A stretch of 33,969 bases of DNA from Candidatus Methanoplasma cognatum (GTDB taxonomy: Archaea > Thermoplasmatota > Thermoplasmata > Methanomassiliicoccales > Methanomethylophilaceae): the NCBI GenBank assembly GCA_009777615.1, contig WRLM01000005.1, positions 87,370 through 121,338 of the forward strand. The letters are read 5' to 3'. Positions 17,586 to 29,007 of the stretch are shown here, piece after piece. Below the pieces are notes generated by a model. It was not told the origin of the DNA. It ran no database searches and saw nothing but the letters and a program-made list of their open reading frames with translations. Numbering within the stretch: the first letter of the stretch is position 1; each line of letters opens with the position of its first letter. The translations under genes and the position numbers were made by a program.

Positions 17586-18803
17586 TCATATCATGCCGAT
17601 AGGGATTATCTTATCGCTGCTGTCGAGCGAGAGCAGGTCGTCATATGTGCAAATGATGCCGCCCGGCCCCCTTTTTCCGAGTCTGTCTACGATCCTGAAC
17701 GCTCTGATGTCCTTCTTGCCTGGGTCTGAGTTTTTCTTGATCTCGATCGGATGCAGGAGGCCGTTCTCCTCTATGATCAGATCGATCTCGTTACCTTCTT
17801 TATCTCTGTAATAATACAGGTGTGGGTCCGAGATGCCCGCGTTGTAATAGCTTTTCAAGACCTCGGAAATTACATATGTCTCAAAGAAAGCGCCTGCCAT
17901 GGCGCCGTCTCGTAGGACATCCGGCGTATTCCACCGCGTGAGATAAGCGGCCAGGCCCGTATCAAGGAAATACAGCTTAGGCGCCTTGATGGTACGGTTG
18001 GTGATGTTGTTGTGGTACGGCTGAAGCAGGTAGATGATATTGGATGCCCTGAGCACGGACAGCCAGCGTTCGGCCGTGGGCACGCTTATCCCCACGTCGT
18101 TCGCCACCGACGACAGATTAAGCACGGTGCCGGTACGTCCGGCGATAACTGTCATGAAACTGATGAATTTCAATTCGTTTTCGATGTTTATCAGATCTCT
18201 CACATCCCGCTCTATGTATGTGGCCACGTAAGATGAATAGAACATCCGGCAATCCATTTCCCTGTTCATGAAAAGCTCCGGCAGACATCCCCTCTGTATG
18301 GTCTCCCAGAGGTGGCCCCGATCCACAGGCCTATATGTTTCAGATCTCTCAATGAAATAATCTTCGGTCGGTAAGAACGGTCGGTTGAATGGGATCTCGG
18401 ACATCTCCCGCATCGATAACCCCAGCATATTAAGGATGCCGATCCTGCCGGCAAGCGACTCGCTCACATTTTTCATCATACGGAACTGCTGCGAACCGGA
18501 TAAGTAGAACAGGCCTTTTTTCTTCCTCTCATCGATGATCATCTTCATTACAATGAAGAGGGAAGGTGCGCGCTGCACTTCATCAACGAACACCGGCGGC
18601 GGGAAATCCTTGAAGAAAGTGATACTTTCGTTGACAGCTGACGACAAACGAAGCGGATCATCTAATGAGACATATCTGATGCCTTCTGTGACCTCCCGGA
18701 GCATTGTGGTCTTACCGACCTGCCTTGGCCCGGTCACAAGTATGGAACCAAACATCGCCGATGCTTTTTTTACTACGTCTTCCAGGTGCCTCTTTAAGTA
18801 CAT
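17586..18803 (-). CDS. AAA_14 / DUF4143 ATPase
   Basis: 405 residues, intact. P-loop 'TGPRQVGKTTML' (G25-K31-T32), Walker B-like 'PPVFVDEVQRAPSLF', sensor 'LFYLSGSQQFRMMK', a winged helix around 220-270 ('VANDVGISVPTAERWLSVLRAS'), and a C-terminal DUF4143 with 'NEIDLIIEENGLLHPIEIKK', the D..ExK pattern of a PD-(D/E)xK-like fold. The family is widespread and highly expanded in gut bacteria and archaea; its role is unproven, perhaps DNA-directed and linked to mobile DNA or defence. A 27-bp perfect palindrome lies 12 bases before the start codon. It is distinct from the 410-604 fragment. Confidence 0.9.
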   Translation of the reverse strand: MYLKRHLEDVVKKASAMFGSILVTGPRQVGKTTMLREVTEGIRYVSLDDPLRLSSAVNESITFFKDFPPPVFVDEVQRAPSLFIVMKMIIDERKKKGLFYLSGSQQFRMMKNVSESLAGRIGILNMLGLSMREMSEIPFNRPFLPTEDYFIERSETYRPVDRGHLWETIQRGCLPELFMNREMDCRMFYSSYVATYIERDVRDLINIENELKFISFMTVIAGRTGTVLNLSSVANDVGISVPTAERWLSVLRASNIIYLLQPYHNNITNRTIKAPKLYFLDTGLAAYLTRWNTPDVLRDGAMAGAFFETYVISEVLKSYYNAGISDPHLYYYRDKEGNEIDLIIEENGLLHPIEIKKNSDPGKKDIRAFRIVDRLGKRGPGGIICTYDDLLSLDSSDKIIPIGMI

Positions 18804-18815
18804 GTCAATTTCCGT

Positions 18816-18842
18816 CTAATTTAATATTCAATATTAAATTAG
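18816..18842. promoter_or_regulatory. 27-bp perfect palindrome upstream of the AAA_14 gene
   Basis: CTAATTTAATATT (18816-18828), a central C, then AATATTAAATTAG (18830-18842): 13-bp arms with no mismatch. It lies 12 bases before the start codon at 18803. The sequence also serves as the only TATA-like stretch for that gene, so a protein bound here would compete with the TATA-binding protein. Autoregulation is an inference. Confidence 0.65.
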
Positions 18843-18941
18843 TCGTATATAATATGTGGCATGCCTCAGCCGTTGGCAGGAACATGCATACTTCCGGCGA
18901 TGTTCACATGCAGAGGCCCTTTCAACGTGATGGAAAAGCTG

Positions 18942-18982
18942 TTGGAAAAAAATGGGAATAATTATTGGAAAAAAATGGGAAT
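18942..18982. repeat. Tandem 18-mer repeat (23-bp period)
   Basis: ttggaaaaaaatgggaat occurs exactly at 18942-18959 and again at 18965-18982. The second copy lies inside a 20-mer (ataattattggaaaaaaatg, 18958-18977) that is also found exactly at 4279-4298. Confidence 0.7.
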
Positions 18983-19047
18983 TTTATTATGCTGGAATCA
19001 TTATCGGGTGACTTGCCCCGGATAAGGCCACATGAGATCGAGACCTT

Positions 19048-19380
19048 ATGAAGGATGCGGGACTGGAAGCTTCGGTATTTGAATCGACAGGGTTCTTCAA
19101 GGTCACATTCAAACGGCCGCTGATGCACACATTGACCATCGAGGAAGTACCCGATAGAATGCCCATAAAACTCACTCACGGACTCACCGAGAATGAGATA
19201 AGAGTTTGCGAACTAATTTCGATCGATGTCAGAATAACTATTATCAAGATGTCCAAAGAACTTAAGCTTACTACACGTCAGACACACATCATCATTTCTT
19301 TGCTTACCGAAAAGGGTACCGTTAGAAGAATAGGTTCCAAAAAGACTGGTTCATGGGTATTTTTTGGTGCGATGAAATGA
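19048..19380 (+). pseudogene. C-terminal remnant of an AlbA_2/RecG-like regulator
   Basis: 110 residues that match, by pattern, the C-terminal end of ATP-binding 'RecG-like' regulators: 'MKDAGLEASVFESTGFFKVTFKRP', then a winged HTH 'LTENEIRVCELISID', 'TIIKMSKELKLTTRQTHIIISLLTEKGTVRRIGSKKTGSW'. The large N-terminal AlbA_2 domain is missing. Just upstream (about 19017-19050) another frame reads '..RIRPHEIETL', which would be the preceding family sequence, so a frameshift near 19045 is likely. It may still express a small DNA-binding protein from ATG 19048, but I treat it as decayed. Confidence 0.55.
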
Positions 19381-19412
19381 TATACAAATCTGAAGATCAA
19401 TCCGAAAATATC

Positions 19413-19537
19413 GGGAAAATAAACGTAAAACAAACGAGAAGCAAATGCCATTTTATAGCAGTAGTTAAAATAGCCAGCAAATAAGAATCTATGAATTTAA
19501 TTGGGGAAAATAAATGTAAAATAAATGGGAAATAAAT
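19413..19537. repeat. Two A-rich direct repeats differing by transitions
   Basis: Positions 19413-19446 and 19504-19537 align without gaps; over the first 30 bases the six differences are all C/T or A/G. They begin gggaaaataaa(c/t)gtaaaa. The stretch 19381-19562 holds no gene. Confidence 0.4.
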
Positions 19538-19570
19538 TATGATTTGTGATATTCGCTGTCTCAACGACTA

Positions 19571-19735
19571 GGGTCTTTCCAAACCTGTTGTATTTTCTCT
19601 ATGTGTCTGGCGATCTCCTGCCCCTCTGGCATCAAGTAAAGTATCATTGAGTTATGTTGTTTATTCTCTTCCCGATGATGATTATTCGTTCTTCGATCAA
19701 TTCATTGATCTTCAGGAAACAAGACTGCCCAAACT
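19571..19735 (-). pseudogene. Decayed winged-helix gene, copy 1
   Basis: Translating the minus strand gives 'FLKINELIEE....GKRINNITQ', two stop codons in 'YFT', then 'RGQEIARHIEKIQQVWK', a clear match to the intact protein at 21803-22084 ('FLRINDVIGEENKQHNAMRLYLTPRGQEVASHLEKIQQVLER'). It has internal stops and an insertion, so it is dead. Confidence 0.65.
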
Positions 19736-19816
19736 TAAATTCCGATAAGAGTATGGGTGTTCGGAGGTACGAGAGAAAGCAATCTTACAGACACAGGACA
19801 AGGACGAGGAGGCACG

Positions 19817-19860
19817 ATCTGAAGGATTGCAGAACTCCTTTTGCTCATAAGCAATACTAA
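19817..19860 (+). pseudogene. Tiny tyrosine-recombinase remnant, copy 1
   Basis: 'DLKDCRTPFAHKQY' followed by a stop resembles the catalytic box 'ELRDCRRGFGQNYLDKG' of the recombinase fragment at 22105-22395. It lies to the right of winged-helix copy 1, just as in copy 2. The match is short and counts mainly because of its position. Confidence 0.45.
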
Positions 19861-19934
19861 GGTTCATTAGACTACACGATATCATTATAACTCGAGTCGA
19901 ATAGCTTTATCTGTTAAAAAAGTCATAAACATTT

Positions 19935-20762
19935 ATGGAATGGTTCAAAGAAAGAAGAAGATACATGGGCACAATTTTTGGATCATGCTACCTCGACTCA
20001 AACCTTATTGTTGCTAAACTAACTGGAGATAGACCAGATTTAATACCTGGTATTGACTACATTTTAGACCAGTATCTGGGAATGTACATCTACATTTCTC
20101 CCATGGTAATAGGTGAGTATTTTGATGTGGCAACACGAAAAAAAGGTCTATCAAGGGAAGAAGCTACAGATGTTTTACGTGATTTCATTCTGAAATATTC
20201 AATCACAATAACATGTCCAAAAGTCAATCTAGCAAGTCATTTCCCAATTGCCGCAGAAGGCGAATTATATGCCGATATTGTTTTACATGATTCAAAACAT
20301 GGAACTTTACAGGTACTCTCAACAAAAGGTTCGAAAAAGCAGTCTGTTACGATGAAATCCGAGCGGCCTGGGTATTCTGATCATAATTACGTTTCTGCAG
20401 AAATAACAGGTTTGTTGACAAAGTTTCTTATTGAGGCAGCAACAGGAGATTATGGAGGAAATAGCGGGAAGTTATCATATCAAGACAAATTGGTTCTGCA
20501 TATGGCTTCTCAGATCGGGCCAGTGTACTTTGTGACAGATGATTCCGACTCGCTTCTAAAGCATTTTACAGGCTTGCCGAACGACAGAAGATGTGGAAAC
20601 ATCTGGGGAATGTTTAACTTATCCGAATTTGAGAAAAAGGACAGAGCGAAGAAAGAGACATTTTTTGGTCCAGAGTATGAAAAATATACATGGTGGGCTG
20701 AGAAAGACAAAGGCAAAGTTAATCTTGGATTGGATTTTCTAAAGGAACATGACAACGGTTGA
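19935..20762 (+). CDS. PIN-domain nuclease-like protein
   Basis: 275 residues. The four acidic positions of a PIN fold are in order: D21 in 'CYLDSNLIVAKL', E61 in 'ISPMVIGEYFDVAT', D184 in 'SYQDKLVLHMA', and D202/D203/D205 in 'VYFVTDDSDSLLKHF'. The fold is a metal-dependent RNase in most toxins. Between the second and third acidic residues is an unusually long insertion of about 70 residues (roughly 95-165), and about 65 residues follow the fold. ATG 19965 is another possible start. The next gene begins 17 bases after the stop on the same strand, so the two form an operon. It is AT-rich, unlike the core genes. The fold call is by motif only. Confidence 0.6.
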   Translation: MEWFKERRRYMGTIFGSCYLDSNLIVAKLTGDRPDLIPGIDYILDQYLGMYIYISPMVIGEYFDVATRKKGLSREEATDVLRDFILKYSITITCPKVNLASHFPIAAEGELYADIVLHDSKHGTLQVLSTKGSKKQSVTMKSERPGYSDHNYVSAEITGLLTKFLIEAATGDYGGNSGKLSYQDKLVLHMASQIGPVYFVTDDSDSLLKHFTGLPNDRRCGNIWGMFNLSEFEKKDRAKKETFFGPEYEKYTWWAEKDKGKVNLGLDFLKEHDNG

Positions 20763-20779
20763 TCCGAACTGGTGTAACA

Positions 20780-21796
20780 ATGTCTGAAAAAACAGTAGAT
20801 GAGGACCTCTTCAATGATGATGCTACATTCGGAGAAATATTTGACAGAGACTCAAAAGACTACTTAATCGTTCATCTTGATGTTCTGGGATACAAGGATT
20901 TTGTTGAAATAAATGGTGAAAAAGAACTATTTGCTTCAATAAGAAAAGGGTGGATGTTTGCTAAAGCTCTTTTTGACCCCGAATTAACTATGGCTGATGG
21001 AAGTACAGTAAGCTACGAAGTAAAATTAAGGATGTTTACGGATAATATTTTCATCTCGGTAGAGTTAGAAGGAGATGGGCGGGACGAGATGCGAGTTACC
21101 CTGACCATCAATATACTAGCACATCTTCAAAATTCAATAATGGATCATTCAAATTTGTTGCTAAGGGGGGCAATTACGTATGGGAAATGCTACATTGATG
21201 ATTTCATTTTGGGAAAACCATTCATAGAGGCATTTGAGCTCGAATCTAAGAAAGCAATATGGTCGAGGATAATAATTAGCGAAAAGGTGTTGACACACAT
21301 TCCACAAAAATTTGTAAATACTCTCGTAAAAAAAGACGAAAAGGGCCTATTTCAACTGGATTATTTACGCATAGTTATCGAATTTACGCATAGTATGTCT
21401 GGAATCACTTCAAGCGAGACACTACTGAAACACAAGGGGAGTGTTTTAAAGATAACCAGAAACACTTTGAACGATGATCGATTTTTAAGCATTGAAACCA
21501 TCGGTGATGCAATCAAAATTCTCAAAATTACAAAAAAATATCATTTATTGACCAAGTATCATAATGACTTATGTGAAGAATATGGCTGTGAGGATGCAAA
21601 AATGGAGGATGTCGAATGGTCTGACACACTTCTTGAGCAATACGAAAGCCTGACTAATCACATAACAGAAGCTAGATCTCCTAAAGAAATTGATGAAATT
21701 AGCAAGATATTGTTGCAAATAAAAAATTCATATGGAAAAATAATTGAGCCTATTATTGCCCATAATGCTAAATATGGTTCTGGAAAAAGCAAATGA
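20780..21796 (+). CDS. Class III nucleotide cyclase-like protein, PIN partner
   Basis: 338 residues from ATG 20780; a TTG at 20759 could add seven. The landmarks follow the class III cyclase layout: 'LIVHLDVLGYKDF' (D34, first metal Asp; compare 'DIxGF'), 'RMFTDNIFISV' (D88, second metal Asp), 'LLLRGAITYG' (129-135; compare 'RxGIHxG') and 'LGKPFIEAFELESKKA' (144-159; compare 'GxxVNxAARLExxA'). About 160 residues of helical C-terminal sequence follow. It might make a cyclic nucleotide signal, as Pycsar cyclases do, or be a derived, non-catalytic relative; the substrate-specifying residues cannot be assigned. It follows the PIN gene closely and its stop is 6 bases from winged-helix gene copy 2. 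Confidence 0.5.
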   Translation: MSEKTVDEDLFNDDATFGEIFDRDSKDYLIVHLDVLGYKDFVEINGEKELFASIRKGWMFAKALFDPELTMADGSTVSYEVKLRMFTDNIFISVELEGDGRDEMRVTLTINILAHLQNSIMDHSNLLLRGAITYGKCYIDDFILGKPFIEAFELESKKAIWSRIIISEKVLTHIPQKFVNTLVKKDEKGLFQLDYLRIVIEFTHSMSGITSSETLLKHKGSVLKITRNTLNDDRFLSIETIGDAIKILKITKKYHLLTKYHNDLCEEYGCEDAKMEDVEWSDTLLEQYESLTNHITEARSPKEIDEISKILLQIKNSYGKIIEPIIAHNAKYGSGKSK

Positions 21797-21802
21797 GAAG
21801 AC

Positions 21803-22084
21803 TCATTCTTTAATATCTTCCTGTTTGTTCACTCTTTCCAGAACTTGCTGTATCTTTTCCAAGTGGCTTGCGACCTCCTGCCCCCTCGGCGTCAGGTAAA
21901 GCCTCATTGCATTGTGTTGTTTATTCTCTTCTCCGATCACGTCATTGATCCTCAGGAACTTCGTTCTTTCATTTCCACCCTCTAACTTTGTTATCTCTGT
22001 CTTTTTCGATCCTGGGTTCTCTTTGACGGCCATTATGACATAAAGGGAGAACTTTCTCTCGAGAATTTCTAACGCAAATCCCAT
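21803..22084 (-). CDS. Winged-helix-like DNA-binding protein, element-borne (copy 2)
   Basis: 93 residues: 'ILERKFSLYVIMAVKENPGSKKTEITKLEGG.ERTKFLRINDVIGEE....MRLYLTPRGQEVASHLEKIQQVLER'. The layout of helix, helix, recognition helix, wing ('RLYLTPRGQ') and a final long helix fits a small winged-helix transcription regulator. Remnants of the same gene lie at 19571-19735 and 25738-25818, each next to where a recombinase is or was. It is therefore probably the directionality factor or repressor of the integrative element. The start codon is 20 bases from the surviving recombinase fragment, in divergent orientation. Confidence 0.65.
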   Translation of the reverse strand: MGFALEILERKFSLYVIMAVKENPGSKKTEITKLEGGNERTKFLRINDVIGEENKQHNAMRLYLTPRGQEVASHLEKIQQVLERVNKQEDIKE

Positions 22085-22104
22085 ATTTCATAATTCAATA
22101 CCTG

Positions 22105-22395
22105 TTGCTACGCAGCAAGTGGTTGAAGTCCCACTCCGCTGAAACAAAGGCGCTATTCTTCTCGTTTTCGGACGGTTACGGTCATCTTTCGGGCAACAGT
22201 TTCAGGAAGATCAAGTCAAAAATCGAGGTAAAAATAGGCGAGAAATTTGAGCTCAGAGACTGCCGCAGAGGCTTCGGTCAGAACTATCTGGACAAGGGCC
22301 TCAACATCGAAGCCGTCTCCGTTCTGATGGGACACTCTTCAACGAAGACCACCGAAGGCTACTACTGCAGGAAATCACAAGCGAATGTAATCTAA
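22105..22395 (+). pseudogene. Tyrosine recombinase, C-terminal fragment (copy 2)
   Basis: About 96 residues holding the end of a phage-type integrase: 'FELRDCRRGFGQNYLDKG' (catalytic Arg box), 'IEAVSVLMGHSSTKTTEGYYCR' with the conserved His and the nucleophile Tyr in the final 'YY'. The reading frame is open back to about 22060 but family sequence stops near the winged-helix start. The N-terminal arm- and core-binding domains and the first catalytic Arg are missing. Its 3' end is followed at once by the 82-bp arm and the tRNA-derived repeat, as expected for an integrase placed beside its attachment site. Confidence 0.7.
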
Positions 22396-22475
22396 GGAGC
22401 GAAGGAAGTATAATGAAACACGCAGGTTGCACCCATCTGGATGCTGGCTATGATAAAGTGAGTGCAACCGCCGGG
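22394..22475. repeat. Attachment-site arm with tRNA-Gly 3' end (distal copy)
   Basis: Matches 25819-25901 over its length by eye, with exact agreement at the end (gtgagtgcaaccgccggg, 22458-22475), which is the last 12 bases of the tRNA gene plus 6 flanking. GGTTGCAC (22425-22432) and GTGCAACC (22462-22469) form an inverted repeat around the middle, as recombinase-bound core sites often do. The rest of 22476-22701 holds nothing that I recognise. Confidence 0.65.
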
Positions 22476-22701
22476 TTTCACACCCCCCTTAGCCAGCGTT
22501 TTCTAAATAAGGGTCAATTCTGCATTTTTACAATAATTCGAAATCAATCGGTTTCACCATAGACTTTTGGGTGTTCTCAGCGACTCGGTTAGATGGAATT
22601 CTGACCGTTTGACAGGCATGTAAGCTGTGGTTGCTGAGGCATCAAATCCAAAAACTCATTAGAAAATCTCTTAACAAAACAACAGAAAGGAACATGAAAA
22701 C

Positions 22702-22893
22702 ATGGCAACAAGTGTAGAAACAAACTTAGGCAAGAAGATAGGAATATACTTCAGACAGATGAACATCGGAGACAACGATGAAGAGCAAAAGACATTAATC
22801 ATGTCTTTTTCAGAAGGCAACGTATACGTTGATCTGAAGATACTCTCGCACTTCAATCGGGAAAAATGGCAGGAGATATCTTCATTTGTTTAG
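22702..22893 (+). CDS. Small protein, function unknown
   Basis: 63 residues, 'MATSVETNLGKKIGIYFRQMNIGDNDEEQKTL...' with no transmembrane segment and no motif I know. The preceding bases contain GAAAGGA 6-12 bases before the ATG, a fair ribosome binding site. It overlaps the next gene by 28 bases in another frame, so a single frameshifted gene is an alternative. It sits inside the att-flanked segment. Confidence 0.45.
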   Translation: MATSVETNLGKKIGIYFRQMNIGDNDEEQKTLIMSFSEGNVYVDLKILSHFNREKWQEISSFV

Positions 22894-23120
22894 AAGACAA
22901 AGAAGAATTAGAGGGTTTTTCAGAGGAAGATTTGCCAGAGATGCTGAGAGATGTGCTCTGTGACTTATTGATTTCAATGATGGATGAGATAGAGAGACAG
23001 AATGCCACACACTGTGACCCCGAGAAATGTGAGGAAGACTGTGACCTTTGCGAAATAAGGGCTATACCGAAAATAATCTGCATCAGAAGCAAAGTCATCA
23101 GAACAAACGGGAGGGCATAA
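22866..23120 (+). CDS. Small acidic protein with Cys cluster, function unknown
   Basis: 84 residues. The first half is strongly acidic ('EDKEELEGFSEEDLPEMLRDVLCDLLISMMDEIER'); the second has 'CDPEKCEEDCDLCEIR', four cysteines spaced C-x4-C-x3-C-x2-C, which could bind zinc. It overlaps the previous small gene by 28 bases, so translation is probably coupled. No family is recognised. Acidic, small and Cys-rich proteins of mobile elements are often anti-restriction or regulatory, but nothing here proves that. Confidence 0.45.
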   Translation: MAGDIFICLEDKEELEGFSEEDLPEMLRDVLCDLLISMMDEIERQNATHCDPEKCEEDCDLCEIRAIPKIICIRSKVIRTNGRA

Positions 23121-23212
23121 TGTTTCACTATCAATTTTTAATATCAGAAGAAGAGGAATGATTAAGGATCATTTTATTGATTGTTTAAACCAAATAGATT
23201 GGCATTAATTTT

Positions 23213-24364
23213 TTATTTTGCTAGGTTGAGATTCAAAATATCCATTCCAAACTGATTATAAATCCATTCTAAAGCCAGACATGTTTTTTTAATGAAGAAA
23301 TACGCACATGTTATCAGACCAAAAAAAGGAATGCCATCTAACCTCAGCGCATGAGTACGATATGTTGCTTTAACAATGTCCTCTCCATTGGATAGCCTGC
23401 TGATCCATCTCTGTTCTGCTCTGTCTTCTAGATACACATTAATAGAAAAATCGAGATGATTTAAATTCATATTTCCGAGATCTTTACCATATGCATCGTT
23501 AATGATACAGTGTATAAATCTCCCGATTACTCGTTGTCTGAAATTATCTAAATGTACTTCTTCGATGTACATTTCCATATCATTACGGTTCTTGGTCTTG
23601 ATAATAACTTCAAGCCGCGCATCATTCTGGCTTTGAAAAGTAGATTTGTATTCAGGCAAGTCTTCTAATTTTTCATTTTTTTGTGAACAATCGTACTCTC
23701 CCCCTGTGTATTTCTTTTGTAGTCTGAAATTACTTATACATTTTGGATCTATTGGGCGAATAACAGCGGCTTCCTTATAATATGAAATATCTGAAAGATT
23801 GTGTACAAAGTATGGGTCGATGTGTAAAAGATAGTTGTTTCCATAAGTTTTTTCGATGTGTTGGATCATTTTATCCTTTTCAAGATATTCAAAGCAATGT
23901 CCTTTGTAACTAACTCCGATAAATGGTCCAAAACGAACCCCATCGTCCACATATTTCCCTCCTCTCAATTCACAATCATCAAAAATATTTCTAGGAAGGT
24001 ATTCGCCGCTACCCTGTTTACTTATCTTTTCAAATAGTTCAGGAAAGGCTTGAAACAGGGGTTGAGATTCGTTATATTGTTCATAACTGCGTCTTTCATG
24101 AAAAGAATGGTTCTCTAGGTAAATATCGTATAGGACTCTTGCTTCGTTTTCATTTTTCGAATCGGTACCTAATTGATAAAAAATGCCCATTCTGCAGTCT
24201 GAAGAAGAGTCTTTCCATTCATATTTGAATTTGCTTGCTCCTTCACATAAATCTTTGATTTGGTTGTCATATCTTCTAATAAAATAGTTGTAGTTAAAAC
24301 GATTAATCTTACCAATTTTATGTGCGAGCTTTTCCATCTTCTCTATGTAGTCGTTGCACATCAT
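23213..24364 (-). CDS. 383-aa protein of unknown function, element cargo
   Basis: I do not recognise this protein. It starts 'MMCNDYIEKMEKLAHKIGKINRFNYNYFIRRYDNQIKDL' (helical), has a middle part rich in Tyr, Gly and acidic residues with 'FGPFIGVSYKGHCFEYLEKDK' and 'YLLHIDPYFVHNLSDI', and a C-terminal part 'IEEVHLDNFRQRVIGRFIHCIINDAYGKDLGNMNLNHLDFSINVYLEDR' and 'YRTHALRLDGIPFFG'. There are no P-loop, no long TM helices and no clear nuclease motif. A minus-strand TATA-like tttttatttatt (24380-24391) is placed for a leaderless start. It is AT-rich and divergent from the HEPN gene, with a 329-base gap. Confidence 0.75.
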   Translation of the reverse strand: MMCNDYIEKMEKLAHKIGKINRFNYNYFIRRYDNQIKDLCEGASKFKYEWKDSSSDCRMGIFYQLGTDSKNENEARVLYDIYLENHSFHERRSYEQYNESQPLFQAFPELFEKISKQGSGEYLPRNIFDDCELRGGKYVDDGVRFGPFIGVSYKGHCFEYLEKDKMIQHIEKTYGNNYLLHIDPYFVHNLSDISYYKEAAVIRPIDPKCISNFRLQKKYTGGEYDCSQKNEKLEDLPEYKSTFQSQNDARLEVIIKTKNRNDMEMYIEEVHLDNFRQRVIGRFIHCIINDAYGKDLGNMNLNHLDFSINVYLEDRAEQRWISRLSNGEDIVKATYRTHALRLDGIPFFGLITCAYFFIKKTCLALEWIYNQFGMDILNLNLAK

Positions 24365-24391
24365 ACTATAATATGGTTAATAAATAAAAAA

Positions 24392-24411
24392 GTGTGAGGT
24401 TTCCTCCACAC
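24392..24411. other. Hairpin in divergent gap
   Basis: GTGTGAGG, loop TTT, then CCT-C-CACAC: eight pairs with one bulged C. It lies just upstream of the TATA-like box of the 383-aa gene. The 24365-24693 gap holds this, the hairpin at 24629-24654, a smaller one around 24573-24586, and no gene. Confidence 0.4.
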
Positions 24412-24628
24412 AAATAGTCACATCCTCTTAAACTATTCCTCCGTGTCCTCCCTCAGAGAACTTTTTCCACAACAGATGAAGGCATTATAACACAAGAGAA
24501 ATTTGATGCCGTCAAAATAAGACTTTTGGAACTATGGTTTCAATTGAAGTATCTCTTTTAACCTGACTTTCGAGCCTCTGAAATAAGAGGTCGGATCCTG
24601 TACAGCGTGGTTTGAACATCTATCTAAT

Positions 24629-24654
24629 GTCGAATAGGGGCATCCCCATTCGAC
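24629..24654. promoter_or_regulatory. Strong inverted repeat before the HEPN gene
   Basis: GTCGAAT-A-GGGG (24629-24640), loop CAT, CCCCATTCGAC (24644-24654): 11 pairs with one bulged A. It is directly followed by a TATA-like tattatattt (24660-24669) that sits about 25 bases before ATG 24694, so it covers the place where BRE-binding factors or a repressor would sit. Confidence 0.5.
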
Positions 24655-24693
24655 TATAGTATTATATTTCTACATAATCGATTATAATGAATT

Positions 24694-25710
24694 ATGGTAA
24701 CTCACGATTCAGACGATTCAAAATTATATCATATTATGTATCCTATTGTATTTTTCTATTCGTCAAATTATTTGGAGGAGTTCAACAGTTGGAAGAGAGT
24801 TATTGAAGATGATGATACTGACTATGTTAATTACATTGTAGAAAAATTCATTTCCAATCCAATCGAATCACATACTTTTTCAAAAAACGTTAATCCGATC
24901 GATGTTACTTTTACATCATCAGGAACAATTATTTTGAAAACAGACGATTATGAGATAGCAAAACGCATCGTAAATTCACTTTTACTTTCCTTTGCTCTTT
25001 TGACAGGTCATACATGTTTTTCGTGCAAGATCACAGATTTAGATCCGATGAGGAATGAAAGAGGTAATTCAATTCCATTGGTTAGATCACATGTGTCCAT
25101 AGGAAGAGCAACAGCATGCTCAAAAGCAATTCTTGGAGATGAGTTTAACAACATTCTCTTCAACAAGCAGTTTCTTCATAAAGACACAATTGCGCCCATA
25201 GTAGAACTAGCTGAACATTTTTATGAATCAAAAAATACTGTCTCTTATCAAAGAGAATTTGAAGCCTTATATCAATGGTCTGTAAAAAACTATGATGTGG
25301 CTTTTATATTATATTGGGTACAAATAGAGCTATTTTTGAAAAGAAATCTTAGATCGTACAATGGGATACCCAGTGCAAGAAAATCAATAAATTCACTTAT
25401 TGGCGTAGACCAAAATGGGAGACCTGTAAGGAGAAAGACAAAACTGTGTGGCAAGTATATACCGTTACTCTTGGCAAGAGACATTAACAATTGTTATGAA
25501 ATAAGAAAGAACATGGTTCATGAAGGGAAAGAGTGTGACGAAAAGTCTGCAGAACTGTGTAAAGAGATTGCTGAAAAACTTCAATTGTGGAGACTTATTG
25601 ATATAGATAGGATTGATTATGATTCATATCTTCACAGAGTTAGATTAATAATTGAACGGGAAGAAAAAGTCATTTGGCCGATGAATAATAATGGTTCTCT
25701 AAGAATGTAA
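24694..25710 (+). CDS. HEPN-domain protein (ApeA-like), element cargo
   Basis: 338 residues. The C-terminal third is helical and carries R271-K-N-M-V-H276 in 'CYEIRKNMVHEGKEC', the RxxxxH signature of HEPN RNases, preceded by a helix with 'YWVQIELFLKRNL' that fits the first HEPN helix. Residues 1-170 form a separate domain with strands ('IDVTFTSSGTIILKTDDYEIAKRIVNSLLLSF') that I cannot name; it may sense the trigger. HEPN proteins of this build are frequent anti-phage RNases acting on tRNA or mRNA. It reads from a likely leaderless start after the hairpin at 24629-24654. The gene is AT-rich and ends 27 bases before winged-helix remnant copy 3. Confidence 0.65.
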   Translation: MVTHDSDDSKLYHIMYPIVFFYSSNYLEEFNSWKRVIEDDDTDYVNYIVEKFISNPIESHTFSKNVNPIDVTFTSSGTIILKTDDYEIAKRIVNSLLLSFALLTGHTCFSCKITDLDPMRNERGNSIPLVRSHVSIGRATACSKAILGDEFNNILFNKQFLHKDTIAPIVELAEHFYESKNTVSYQREFEALYQWSVKNYDVAFILYWVQIELFLKRNLRSYNGIPSARKSINSLIGVDQNGRPVRRKTKLCGKYIPLLLARDINNCYEIRKNMVHEGKECDEKSAELCKEIAEKLQLWRLIDIDRIDYDSYLHRVRLIIEREEKVIWPMNNNGSLRM

Positions 25711-25737
25711 GTGGAAATATTCTCTCGAGTAAAGAAA

Positions 25738-25818
25738 TCAGGATCTTTCCAAAACCAGTTGTATCTTTTCCAAGTGAATTGCGATTCCCTGCCCCTTTGG
25801 CGTCAGGCAAAGCCTCAT
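25738..25818 (-). pseudogene. Winged-helix gene remnant, copy 3
   Basis: The minus strand reads 'MRLCLTPKGQGIAIHLEKIQLVLERS', the last third of the winged-helix protein (compare 'MRLYLTPRGQEVASHLEKIQQVLER' at 21803-22084). Right after it, at 25819, the sequence jumps to what follows the recombinase stop in copy 2. So a deletion removed the gene's front part together with the recombinase. Confidence 0.65.
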
Positions 25819-25901
25819 AAGAAGCGAAGGAGGTGTGGTGAAACAGGCCGGTTGCACCCCTTTTTGATGCTGGGTGGGTAAAAGTGAGTGCAACCGCCGG
25901 G
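25819..25901. repeat. Attachment-site arm joined to tRNA-Gly (proximal copy)
   Basis: 83 bases related to 22394-22475, sharing 'gcgaagga', 'gaaaca', 'ggttgcaccc', 'gatgctgg' and the exact 3' end 25884-25901. It contains the last 12 bases of the tRNA gene. The two copies are 3426 bp apart and would be the left and right ends of the younger element. Confidence 0.65.
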
Positions 25902-25961
25902 ATTCGAACCCGGGTAGCAAGCTTGGAAGGCTTGAATCCTGACCAGCTAGATTACAGTTGC
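25889..25961 (-). tRNA. tRNA-Gly (anticodon TCC)
   Basis: 73 nt on the minus strand from 25961. Acceptor stem GCAACTG / CGGTTGC with one G-U pair, discriminator A, D arm with TAGCTGGTCA, anticodon stem CAAGC / GCTTG with loop CTTCCAA (anticodon TCC), TpsiC arm CCGGG-TTCGAAT-CCCGG. No CCA is encoded, as usual in this group. TATA-like tgatatttaa (25986-25995) lies about 25-34 bases upstream. It is the integration target of the elements to its left; the gene remains whole. Confidence 0.93.
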
Positions 25962-26076
25962 AACGGACCTCCCCTATTTTGTACTTGATATTTAACTGTA
26001 ATGCTGGGTTAGGAAAGCATTCGTGATTTTAAAGGAAAAGACTTAGATTTATCTATTCTGCGGAAGATACTGGTAC

Positions 26077-29007
26077 ATGATGCACGAACCTGTGTTCCAG
26101 GATAGTTTTGAAGTAAACGTCTGGAAGAGGCTTAACTCCGAAAAGGACAGTGCATCGCAGAAGAGCGATTTTTTCATCGGCATCGCCAATAGCGTTATAA
26201 AACGCGAAAGATCCGCTAATTCCGCGATACTTTCGCTGCTCATTGAGAAACTATTCGAGACGCAGAGCAGCGGGATGGAGCCGCTCATCGACCAGCTTGT
26301 TTCCAAAAGCAGGCCTAATGACTGCATGCCGGCGCTGACGGCGGCCCTTGTCTATGCCGGTGTCGACAGGTGGGATAAGGCGGAAGAGATGGCGGAATCG
26401 GTGAAGCACGCTCAGAACATCCCCATGCTGGGATGCGTGAGGGCAAAGATAGCGATGGAGGCGGGCGATACCCCGAAGGCAAAGAAGGAACTGATGAGGG
26501 CAAGATGCAGCGACCCCGCTTTTCCTATGTTCTATGAGCTCATCCAGCAGGCGGAGCCGGCGGAAGGCTGGATGTACAGGCAGAACATCGAACTGCTGGC
26601 CGCCGGCAGGGAGCAGATACCCTTCGGCGATAACACCGGCTCCAATCCCGTTCAGAAGCTGTATGAGATCTACAGGGATTGGTACAAAGGTAGCAGGGAC
26701 GAGGCCACCGAAGCGATGATAAGGTCCGAAGAGTACAAGAAAAAGAATTCGGAGTATGTGCTAGCATCCGCCAGGATGTCCATGGACGAGAGAGACTGGC
26801 ACTCCGCTCAGATGATGTACACCTCCCTCCTCACAAAAAGCGCGAACTGCGTTTACATAATATGCGAGGCGGCCAAAGCGTTCTACTCCGGAGGGAACTT
26901 TGAGAAAGCGCTGTCCATGTACAGGGACGCGGAAGCACTGGACCCTGTTTCCCCATTGGTCATGAGAGGCTTGATCCAAACCTATTCGGCGCTGGGAATG
27001 AAAGCGGAAGCGGCGCAATGCGCGAAAGAATACCTGGACAGCGAGAACGCGGACCTTGCGGCATATGTCATGGGGGCGAAGGTGCTGTTCTCGAACTCCT
27101 TCTATGCGGACGCAGAGTCGGTGGTGGACAAGGTCCTCCTTTCCCATCCGGGCGATCCGAGCGCATTCGTTCTGAAATCGGAGATAGAGTTCGAGAGTGG
27201 GAACATAAACGCCGCCCTGAGGACGGTCCTGAACGGGGTCGATAAGAATCCAGACAATGCAGACGTCAGGCGTCAGAAGGCGAGGATACTGTTCAAGACA
27301 GGGAGGGCGGACAAAGCGGCGGCAGAACTGGAGAAAGCGGAGAAAGCAGACCCAGATAATGTGGGGGTGCTGCTTCTGATGAAGGACATCGCGATCGCCG
27401 GCGGAAAGAGCGAGGACGCCGTAAGGCTGAGCAACAGGATACTTCAGCTGGACCCAGGGAACGTCGACGCCATGAACACCCTGTCGAAGGCGAATCTTTC
27501 GGTGAAGAGAGAGGAGTCCTACTCCTCGTACAAGGACATGATGGTAGCAGACAACAGAGCGGAGAATTTCGTTAATGTCTTATCGTCCATGATCATCGAC
27601 GGCAAGTACAGGGAGGCGGTACAGATGTTCATCGAGAAGGAAAGGGAGTTCGGCAAGAATCCGGCGGTGAGGCGTTTGAAAGGGAACGCCGAGTATGCCC
27701 TGGGTAATTACAAAGAAGCATCCGCCGCCTTCGCATACGCTTCCGAGCTGGACCCGAAGGATCCGATGGCATGGCACTCGAAGGGCATGGCCGACGAGGC
27801 CATGGGCGACCTCAAGAATGCCGAAGAAGCTTACAACAAAGCCGTCCTTCTGGATATGAACGAACCGGAGTACTGGGTCTCGCGTTCTTCCATACAGGAG
27901 AAGAAGAAAGACCTGGCCGGGGCGGTCGAGTCCCTGAACAGGGTTATCGAACTCAGACCGGGCGACATATACGCGCTTGTGAAAAAGGGAATGATCTTCG
28001 CGGAGCTCGGAAGATTTGATGAAGCGCTTTATTATCTGGATATGGCGACGGTCACCGATCCTGATAACATCGAAGTGATGAGGATCAGGCGCGACGTGGG
28101 GATGGCCTCCGGTAATATCAAGGCGGCGGAGGAAGCGGCAGTGAAGCTGGTCGAACTGAGGCCCTTCGATGAGGAAGGGGTCGCCGCAGCGGTCAGGATA
28201 CTTATGCTCAATGGCAGGGACGAGGCCGCCGCAGGCCTGATAGAGAATGCGCTCAAGGCGGAGCCGTCCTCGATCCCTCTCCTCATAACCAAAAAGGAGT
28301 TCTGCACGCTGAGAGAGGACCACAGAGGGATAATCGAGGTCTGCCGCCGCATTTTGGCAGCACAGCCGGATAATAATCTGATCAGAAACGATCTCGCCGA
28401 AGCGTACGCGGCCACGGGCGATGTGAATGCGGCAAGCAGGATGTACATGGAGATCAGCCCCGCGGAAGATAAGGCCGAACAAAAACGCCAATATGCCCCC
28501 AAGGCACAGAAACAAAAAGTACCAGACACAATAAAAAGATATGCAGAAAGGGTCCTGAGGCGCGCATACATATCAAAACTCTCGCTGAGCGATCCGACGC
28601 TGGTCGAAGCGCTGGATATCGATGAGGCCACCGCCAGGGCCATAATGGCCTATCTCTCCGACATATCGGAATACGGCGACGTCAGCCCAGGAACACTGGA
28701 GTTCGAAAGGATGGAGAAGCTTTCGTTCAACGCGGTGACCAAAGGGAACTGCACGGGCCTGGAGAGCGAACCGCTGATAACGATACCCAGCGCGTATGTC
28801 GCCGGCGGGGCGAAGGATGCGGACGAAGCGAAGTTACTGGTCGCCTACATGTATAAGGTGTTAAGCGCCAAAAAGTCGGCGAAAGCGCTCCCTCCGGATC
28901 TGAGGAAGATAGCGGAAGCAACCCAAAAGGACACATCCATTGAAGAAATAATGAAAGGGCACAAGATCGGAGCGTATCAGGCGAAGCTGGTCAAAGACAA
29001 CCTGTGA
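26077..29007 (+). CDS. Large TPR-repeat protein
   Basis: 976 residues. From about 230 to 800 it is a run of tetratricopeptide repeats (for example 'AKAFYSGGNFEKALSMYRDAEALDPVSP', 'NAEYALGNYKEASAAFAYASELDPKDP', 'MIFAELGRFDEALYYLDMATVTDPDN'), forming a superhelical scaffold for protein contacts. No signal peptide or TM segment, so cytoplasmic. The last 150 residues are a different alpha-helical part ('RYAERVLRRAYISKLSLSDP', 'IMKGHKIGAYQAKLVKDNL'). The partner is unknown. ATG 26080 is an equal alternative start; a TATA-like gatttatct (26046-26054) lies 23-31 bases upstream. Its stop directly abuts the truD stop (TGATCA at 29005-29010). Confidence 0.9.
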   Translation: MMHEPVFQDSFEVNVWKRLNSEKDSASQKSDFFIGIANSVIKRERSANSAILSLLIEKLFETQSSGMEPLIDQLVSKSRPNDCMPALTAALVYAGVDRWDKAEEMAESVKHAQNIPMLGCVRAKIAMEAGDTPKAKKELMRARCSDPAFPMFYELIQQAEPAEGWMYRQNIELLAAGREQIPFGDNTGSNPVQKLYEIYRDWYKGSRDEATEAMIRSEEYKKKNSEYVLASARMSMDERDWHSAQMMYTSLLTKSANCVYIICEAAKAFYSGGNFEKALSMYRDAEALDPVSPLVMRGLIQTYSALGMKAEAAQCAKEYLDSENADLAAYVMGAKVLFSNSFYADAESVVDKVLLSHPGDPSAFVLKSEIEFESGNINAALRTVLNGVDKNPDNADVRRQKARILFKTGRADKAAAELEKAEKADPDNVGVLLLMKDIAIAGGKSEDAVRLSNRILQLDPGNVDAMNTLSKANLSVKREESYSSYKDMMVADNRAENFVNVLSSMIIDGKYREAVQMFIEKEREFGKNPAVRRLKGNAEYALGNYKEASAAFAYASELDPKDPMAWHSKGMADEAMGDLKNAEEAYNKAVLLDMNEPEYWVSRSSIQEKKKDLAGAVESLNRVIELRPGDIYALVKKGMIFAELGRFDEALYYLDMATVTDPDNIEVMRIRRDVGMASGNIKAAEEAAVKLVELRPFDEEGVAAAVRILMLNGRDEAAAGLIENALKAEPSSIPLLITKKEFCTLREDHRGIIEVCRRILAAQPDNNLIRNDLAEAYAATGDVNAASRMYMEISPAEDKAEQKRQYAPKAQKQKVPDTIKRYAERVLRRAYISKLSLSDPTLVEALDIDEATARAIMAYLSDISEYGDVSPGTLEFERMEKLSFNAVTKGNCTGLESEPLITIPSAYVAGGAKDADEAKLLVAYMYKVLSAKKSAKALPPDLRKIAEATQKDTSIEEIMKGHKIGAYQAKLVKDNL

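Follow-up and report, generated by a model that had tools for sequence, protein, structure and literature searches.

Architecture of the tRNA-Gly-associated unit

The window analysed here is a 33,969-nucleotide stretch of the archaeon Candidatus Methanoplasma cognatum (G000:C5:87370-121338, within a 1.6-Mb genome of seven contigs), in which a compact 3.4-kb unit abuts the 3′ end of a tRNA-Gly(TCC) gene. The unit is bracketed by two exact copies, starting at 22455 and 25881, of a 21-bp attachment (att) repeat, AAAGTGAGTGCAACCGCCGGG, in agreement with the first-pass annotation, which had proposed from the bare sequence and its open reading frames that two tRNA-derived repeats delimit the unit. 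The genes it listed are also where it had placed them: two small overlapping genes encoding proteins of 63 and 84 amino acids (aa), a 383-aa gene and, divergent from the latter across a 329-bp spacer, a 338-aa gene labelled HEPN, with both R271 and H276 of the motif present (Table 1). The cargo has a G+C content of 34%, as against 52% in the flanks of the window, and belongs to a low-G+C island (34-41%) that runs from about 18.8 to 25.9 kb. The 18-bp core of the att repeat has no third match in the window even when 3 mismatches are allowed, with a chance expectation of 0 and none in shuffled sequences; nor were RNA genes other than the tRNA found between 18.5 and 26.1 kb.

Comparison with other members of the genus brings out the organization of the unit. 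A congener with a one-contig genome (G071) carries an 11.3-kb insertion (L056:471-11760) at this tRNA-Gly as well; an exact repeat of 17 bp flanks the insertion, and both small genes sit at its distal end. Homology between the two elements begins at 22458, that is, at the att core, ends past the 84-aa gene, and picks up again at the tRNA, the right end being common to both as well. Hence, 22458 marks the boundary of the element, and the small genes form an end module behind which the cargo has been swapped: in place of the genes of our unit, the G071 element bears what we take, on reading the translations, to be HsdR-, HsdS- and HsdM-like proteins of a type I restriction system. Next to this tRNA-Gly in G062 (L059) come an integrase remnant and then presumptive nitrogenase-like and ABC-transporter genes, which on our reading are metabolic rather than defence cargo, while in G061 and G056 the flanking gene directly follows the tRNA-Gly, leaving the site empty. 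The tRNA-Gly site is therefore a genus-wide integration hotspot, and comparison with the congener shows replacement of cargo between species. The 63-aa gene product belongs to no family in the profile libraries (Pfam, PADLOC, NCBIfam and PHROG), and neither small gene has a match in viral contigs; the 84-aa gene has a weak match in G121 (31% identical, E 6e-5).

At the right end, an imperfect inverted repeat (26 nt, 73%) surrounds the att core at 25840-25905, and its GCAGGTTGCAC-type arm recurs in G071 and G062, likewise at the right end. In the G071 element, a 394-aa ATPase-like gene adjoins the tRNA.

Table 1. Features of the tRNA-Gly-associated unit and of the element remnants beside it, in window coordinates
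Feature	Position	Strand	Remarks
Longest copy of the helix-turn-helix (HTH) regulator gene, in the neighbouring element, outside the unit	21803..22084	-	
C-terminal fragment of a tyrosine integrase, in the neighbouring element of the tandem, outside the unit	22105..22395	+	Pfam Phage_integrase, 9e-8
Distal att copy, left boundary of the unit	22455..22475	+	21-bp exact repeat of the tRNA-Gly 3′ end
Left-end module (att core and both small genes)	22458..23124	+	78% identity over 673 columns to the G071 element (blastn vs L056)
63-aa small gene of the left-end module	22702..22893	+	69% identical to a gene in the G071 element
84-aa small Cys-rich gene of the left-end module	22866..23120	+	68-70% identical in G071
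383-aa cargo gene, member of the rare undescribed family X	23213..24364	-	Relatives L007-L013, L050
338-aa cargo gene, putative HEPN-type RNase	24694..25710	+	Single RxxxxH, RKNMVH at residues 271-276
HTH-regulator gene remnant (3′ part), inside the unit	25740..25818	-	84% identical to 21833-21907, 77% to 19570-19647
Right-end segment running into att and the tRNA	25818..25911	+	80% identical to 22393-22485
tRNA-side att copy	25881..25901	+	21-bp exact repeat
tRNA-Gly(TCC), integration target gene	25888..25961	-	Right att copy is its 3′ end

A tandem of decayed elements

The C-terminal fragment of a tyrosine integrase adjoins the distal att copy on its left and is followed by a copy (22393-22485) of the right-end segment that precedes the tRNA. 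Full-length relatives of this fragment in the genus are about 340-375 aa long, and several of them adjoin the 3′ ends of other tRNAs. An intact integrase is found neither inside the unit nor in the G071 element, and the fragment is the sole integrase piece within 18500-26100 of the window. The one other match in the genome of the window is a further short C-terminal fragment (a 104-aa frame, G000:C1). The HTH regulator gene is present in three copies: a partial one at 19570, the longest in the neighbouring element, and a 79-bp remnant inside the unit. Neither these copies nor the integrase fragment had been noticed in the first-pass annotation. Since the unit and the G071 element both lack an intact integrase and a lone fragment is left beside the att copy, the unit is best viewed as a decayed element in a tandem, akin to the cis-mobilizable elements (CIMEs) considered below. 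The boundaries, the tandem structure, the missing integrase and the conserved end module are all established.

The second integrase fragment (L037:8781-9198) adjoins a tRNA-Arg(CCT) and stands beside a low-G+C stretch; here there is probably another decayed element.

A rare family, found among antiviral genes, includes the 383-aa gene

Our searches recovered eight relatives of the 383-aa gene, in bacteria and one viral contig, which together define what we term family X. They are encoded on a Peribacillus plasmid (E 4e-22, 83% covered), on a Priestia plasmid, where the gene carries in-frame stops, on a Rhizobium plasmid, where it is interrupted by an insertion element, in two Paenibacillus (one copy cut short), in a Saprospiraceae bacterium, in Marinococcus and on the viral contig. 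An alignment of six proteins has 39 invariant columns, with the strongest conservation in the motifs GRxIH, LNHLDxxINVY and RTHxxR, and the family has no convincing match to any Pfam, PADLOC, PHROG or NCBIfam model. Within the phylum it occurs in the genome of the window only, among 293 genomes, and a sample of 399 Bacilli yielded the seed genome only. A lipocalin identity of the 383-aa protein, suggested by matches in the PDB at E 0.04, vanished with the family profile. Weak order-wide matches to the two cargo proteins were likewise dropped: that in G057 is GyrA-like, those in G108 and G105 are CarA-like, and that in G077 spans stop codons and has no phmmer match.

Going by neighbours identified by family search or from record annotation, most of the family-X genes lie close to known defence genes, which places the family in bacterial defence loci. 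In the Saprospiraceae bacterium (L010) an AriA-like ATPase (2.7e-80), and in Marinococcus a PifA-like KAP NTPase (3e-78), is encoded directly upstream of the family-X gene. As neighbours of family X, P. rigui has an Avs1-like STAND protein, Priestia both a DSR2 and a TIR protein, the viral contig a SIR2 protein together with a serine recombinase, Rhizobium an AbiE pair, and Paenibacillus DMB5 a weak PDC-M36A match. We read the family as one that has spread horizontally, and the 383-aa gene product as probably an antiviral protein, either stand-alone or coupled to an NTPase. A more tentative extension, which we regard as speculative, is that family X comprises new effectors coupled to varied sensor NTPases (the AriA-like one in Saprospiraceae, the PifA-like KAP protein in Marinococcus) or acting solo, and that it passed from bacteria to the archaeal mobile element; were this true, the invariant GRxIH, LNHLDxxINVY and RTHxxR motifs would constitute an undescribed active site.

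The 338-aa gene and its putative HEPN domain

In contrast to its neighbour, which has relatives elsewhere, the 338-aa gene has none in 147 genomes of the order, 390 genomes of the phylum, plasmids or phages, and pattern scans of genome contigs and viral contigs found nothing. When the C-terminal half of the protein was used as query against plasmids and phages (E<=10), the matches were all in phages, at E 0.08 and above. The RKNMVH motif conforms to the HEPN Rx4-6H signature with a polar residue after the arginine, and in a single-sequence structure model it ends a long helix within a helical C-terminal half. The single-sequence predictions have a mean pLDDT (predicted local distance difference test) of 38 and 32, too poor for a fold search, the model just described being the one at 38. 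Against Pfam, PADLOC, NCBIfam and PHROG, the protein has no HEPN match at E<=1. Its HEPN identity is a reasonable guess from the motif and not a result; the HEPN fold and an RNase activity are accordingly to be read as predictions.

A decayed element with two probably separate cargo genes

We propose, with a probability of about 0.68, that the unit is a decayed, integrase-less element at tRNA-Gly(TCC) with two separate cargo genes of probable defence role. Its ancestor would have been an integrative element that inserted, within this archaeal genus, at the 3′ end of the tRNA gene, and the unit itself would be the tRNA-proximal member of an accretion of decayed elements, having kept both att copies and the two-gene left-end module but lost its integrase and most of the HTH gene. 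On this history the unit would once have been mobile; movement now would require that a related integrase of another element act on its att sites. The 383-aa and 338-aa genes would work separately, the latter probably as a HEPN effector that cleaves RNA, carries a regulatory region of its own at the N terminus and confers an abortive-infection-type immunity. An antiviral role for both cargo genes would accord with this scheme. The suggestion of the first-pass annotation that such a small element is defence cargo is borne out as regards the compact att-flanked layout and the defence-like cargo, the boundary and the swapping of cargo being shown by the comparison with a congener; the HEPN identity on which it leaned is unproven. 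The defence reading draws on the setting of the unit and, for family X, on association, and is motif-deep for the 338-aa gene.

Several points weigh against this proposal. Excision and any activity of the unit are unproven. One family-X locus (L007) has no defence gene among the neighbours annotated or scanned, and the defence association of the family is drawn from eight loci without a background rate; with so small a sample, the link amounts to guilt by association. For the 338-aa protein, the mean pLDDT of 38 means that the helical setting of the motif comes from a low-confidence model, and an hhalign comparison with four Apea-HEPN proteins of the same order gave E 0.2, when one of five shuffled controls reached 0.17. 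Because that comparison falls within the range of the controls and no profile library yields a match, the HEPN label of the first-pass annotation stays putative; the motif residues are where it placed them. A sizeable share of doubt must therefore be granted to the alternative that the protein is no HEPN RNase and that its RxxxxH is a chance match in cargo devoid of an RNase, although we lean the other way. When the 338-aa protein is shuffled, any RxxxxH turns up 43% of the time, in keeping with chance, yet the stricter form, R-polar-x-aliphatic-aliphatic-H, does so in just 1.7% of shuffles; MAFFT, moreover, sets RKNMVH over the RNxxxH of the four Apea-HEPN proteins, and the placement of the motif at the end of a helix in the low-confidence model points the same way.

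A further alternative is a single two-gene system, whether toxin and antitoxin or effector and sensor, with transcription running outward in both directions from the 329-bp spacer; it might be expected from two genes of similarly low G+C content that adjoin in one compact unit. Nevertheless, no match to the 338-aa protein occurs in any of the eight family-X genomes or records, and the 383-, 84- and 63-aa genes have no match to any nucleotidyltransferase family, such as the minimal nucleotidyltransferase partner in a HEPN-MNT pair would show. Toxin-antitoxin pairs are also rarely divergent, which makes the layout atypical of them, and we consider such a pairing improbable. The co-occurrence search suggested by the first-pass annotation found the two genes apart, the first of two observations it had named as telling against its own reading; its idea that the 383-aa protein is a sensor or protector for the HEPN protein is not supported, and its last alternative, that the gene is independent, is the one with support. 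Rather more room, though still little, is left for the unit being an active element mobilized in trans and not a fossil: both att copies persist with an exact 21-bp core, the G071 element also lacks an integrase, and integrase genes of the same family exist elsewhere in the genus. The HTH and integrase remnants, however, indicate progressive deletion, and its own genome offers just one further integrase match, again a short fragment. Lastly, the right-end duplication belongs to a longer diverged repeat, and one could imagine that the att repeat is a product of chance or recombination and 22455-25901 no discrete element; the start of homology to another species' element at the att core and the empty sites in congeners render this very improbable.

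Relationship to known systems

CIMEs occur in accretion tandems at tRNA genes (PMC5704250). The unit resembles them in having att sites at both ends, in the loss of integration genes, and in sharing one target, in a tandem, with decayed elements related to it. It differs in its archaeal host and its conserved two-gene left-end module, and the likeness is one of att sites, integrase loss and tandem arrangement. Parallels also exist with tRNA-associated defence hotspots and islands, as in E. coli (PMC10121019), and with the P2/P4 hotspots (PMC9122126): one integration site, cargo swapped between strains or species, and antiviral genes in that cargo. Unlike those, our site is archaeal, its cargo is uncharacterised, and one congener (G062) has metabolic cargo there. 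The arrangement is thus ordinary for mobile defence cargo, while both cargo genes are undescribed.

Among the HEPN superfamily RNases (PMC3710099), which include Apea-HEPN, the 338-aa protein would be most like the latter in its RxxxxH, the polar residue after the R and the modelled helical C-terminal half, and is unlike them in matching no HEPN family profile and in its unconfirmed fold. A further likeness is to PARIS (AriA/AriB), since the Saprospiraceae family-X gene comes right after the AriA-like ATPase, in the place of ariB. However, no family-X member matches DUF4435/AriB or any PADLOC model, and the archaeal unit lacks AriA and any AAA_15/AAA_21 ATPase.

Our analysis documents an archaeal tRNA-Gly hotspot at which elements devoid of an integrase share their left end and carry swapped cargo that includes defence genes. 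It also adds family X, open to direct testing, as a rare undescribed protein family found among known antiviral genes in Bacillota, Bacteroidota, a Rhizobium plasmid and a viral contig, and in one archaeon.

Other features of the window

In the neighbouring element (19935-21796), the gene for a 275-aa protein, which matches PIN weakly (E 0.1), overlaps the start of that for a 345-aa protein matching phrog_23933 (6e-13). The latter has distant relatives on Rhizobium, Acinetobacter and other plasmids, and the 275-aa protein has none on plasmids. At the left edge of the low-G+C island lies an AAA_14/DUF4143 ATPase gene (17586-18803). Elsewhere, the window holds genes that we take, from reading them, to encode an archaeal-type TruD, the archaeosine enzyme tgtA and a pyruvate oxidoreductase, and which mark the genome as archaeal. 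Between 32003 and 33775, a 108-nt repeat recurs in three copies about 830 nt apart (68-80% identical), which suggests a long repetitive gene that continues past the window's edge.

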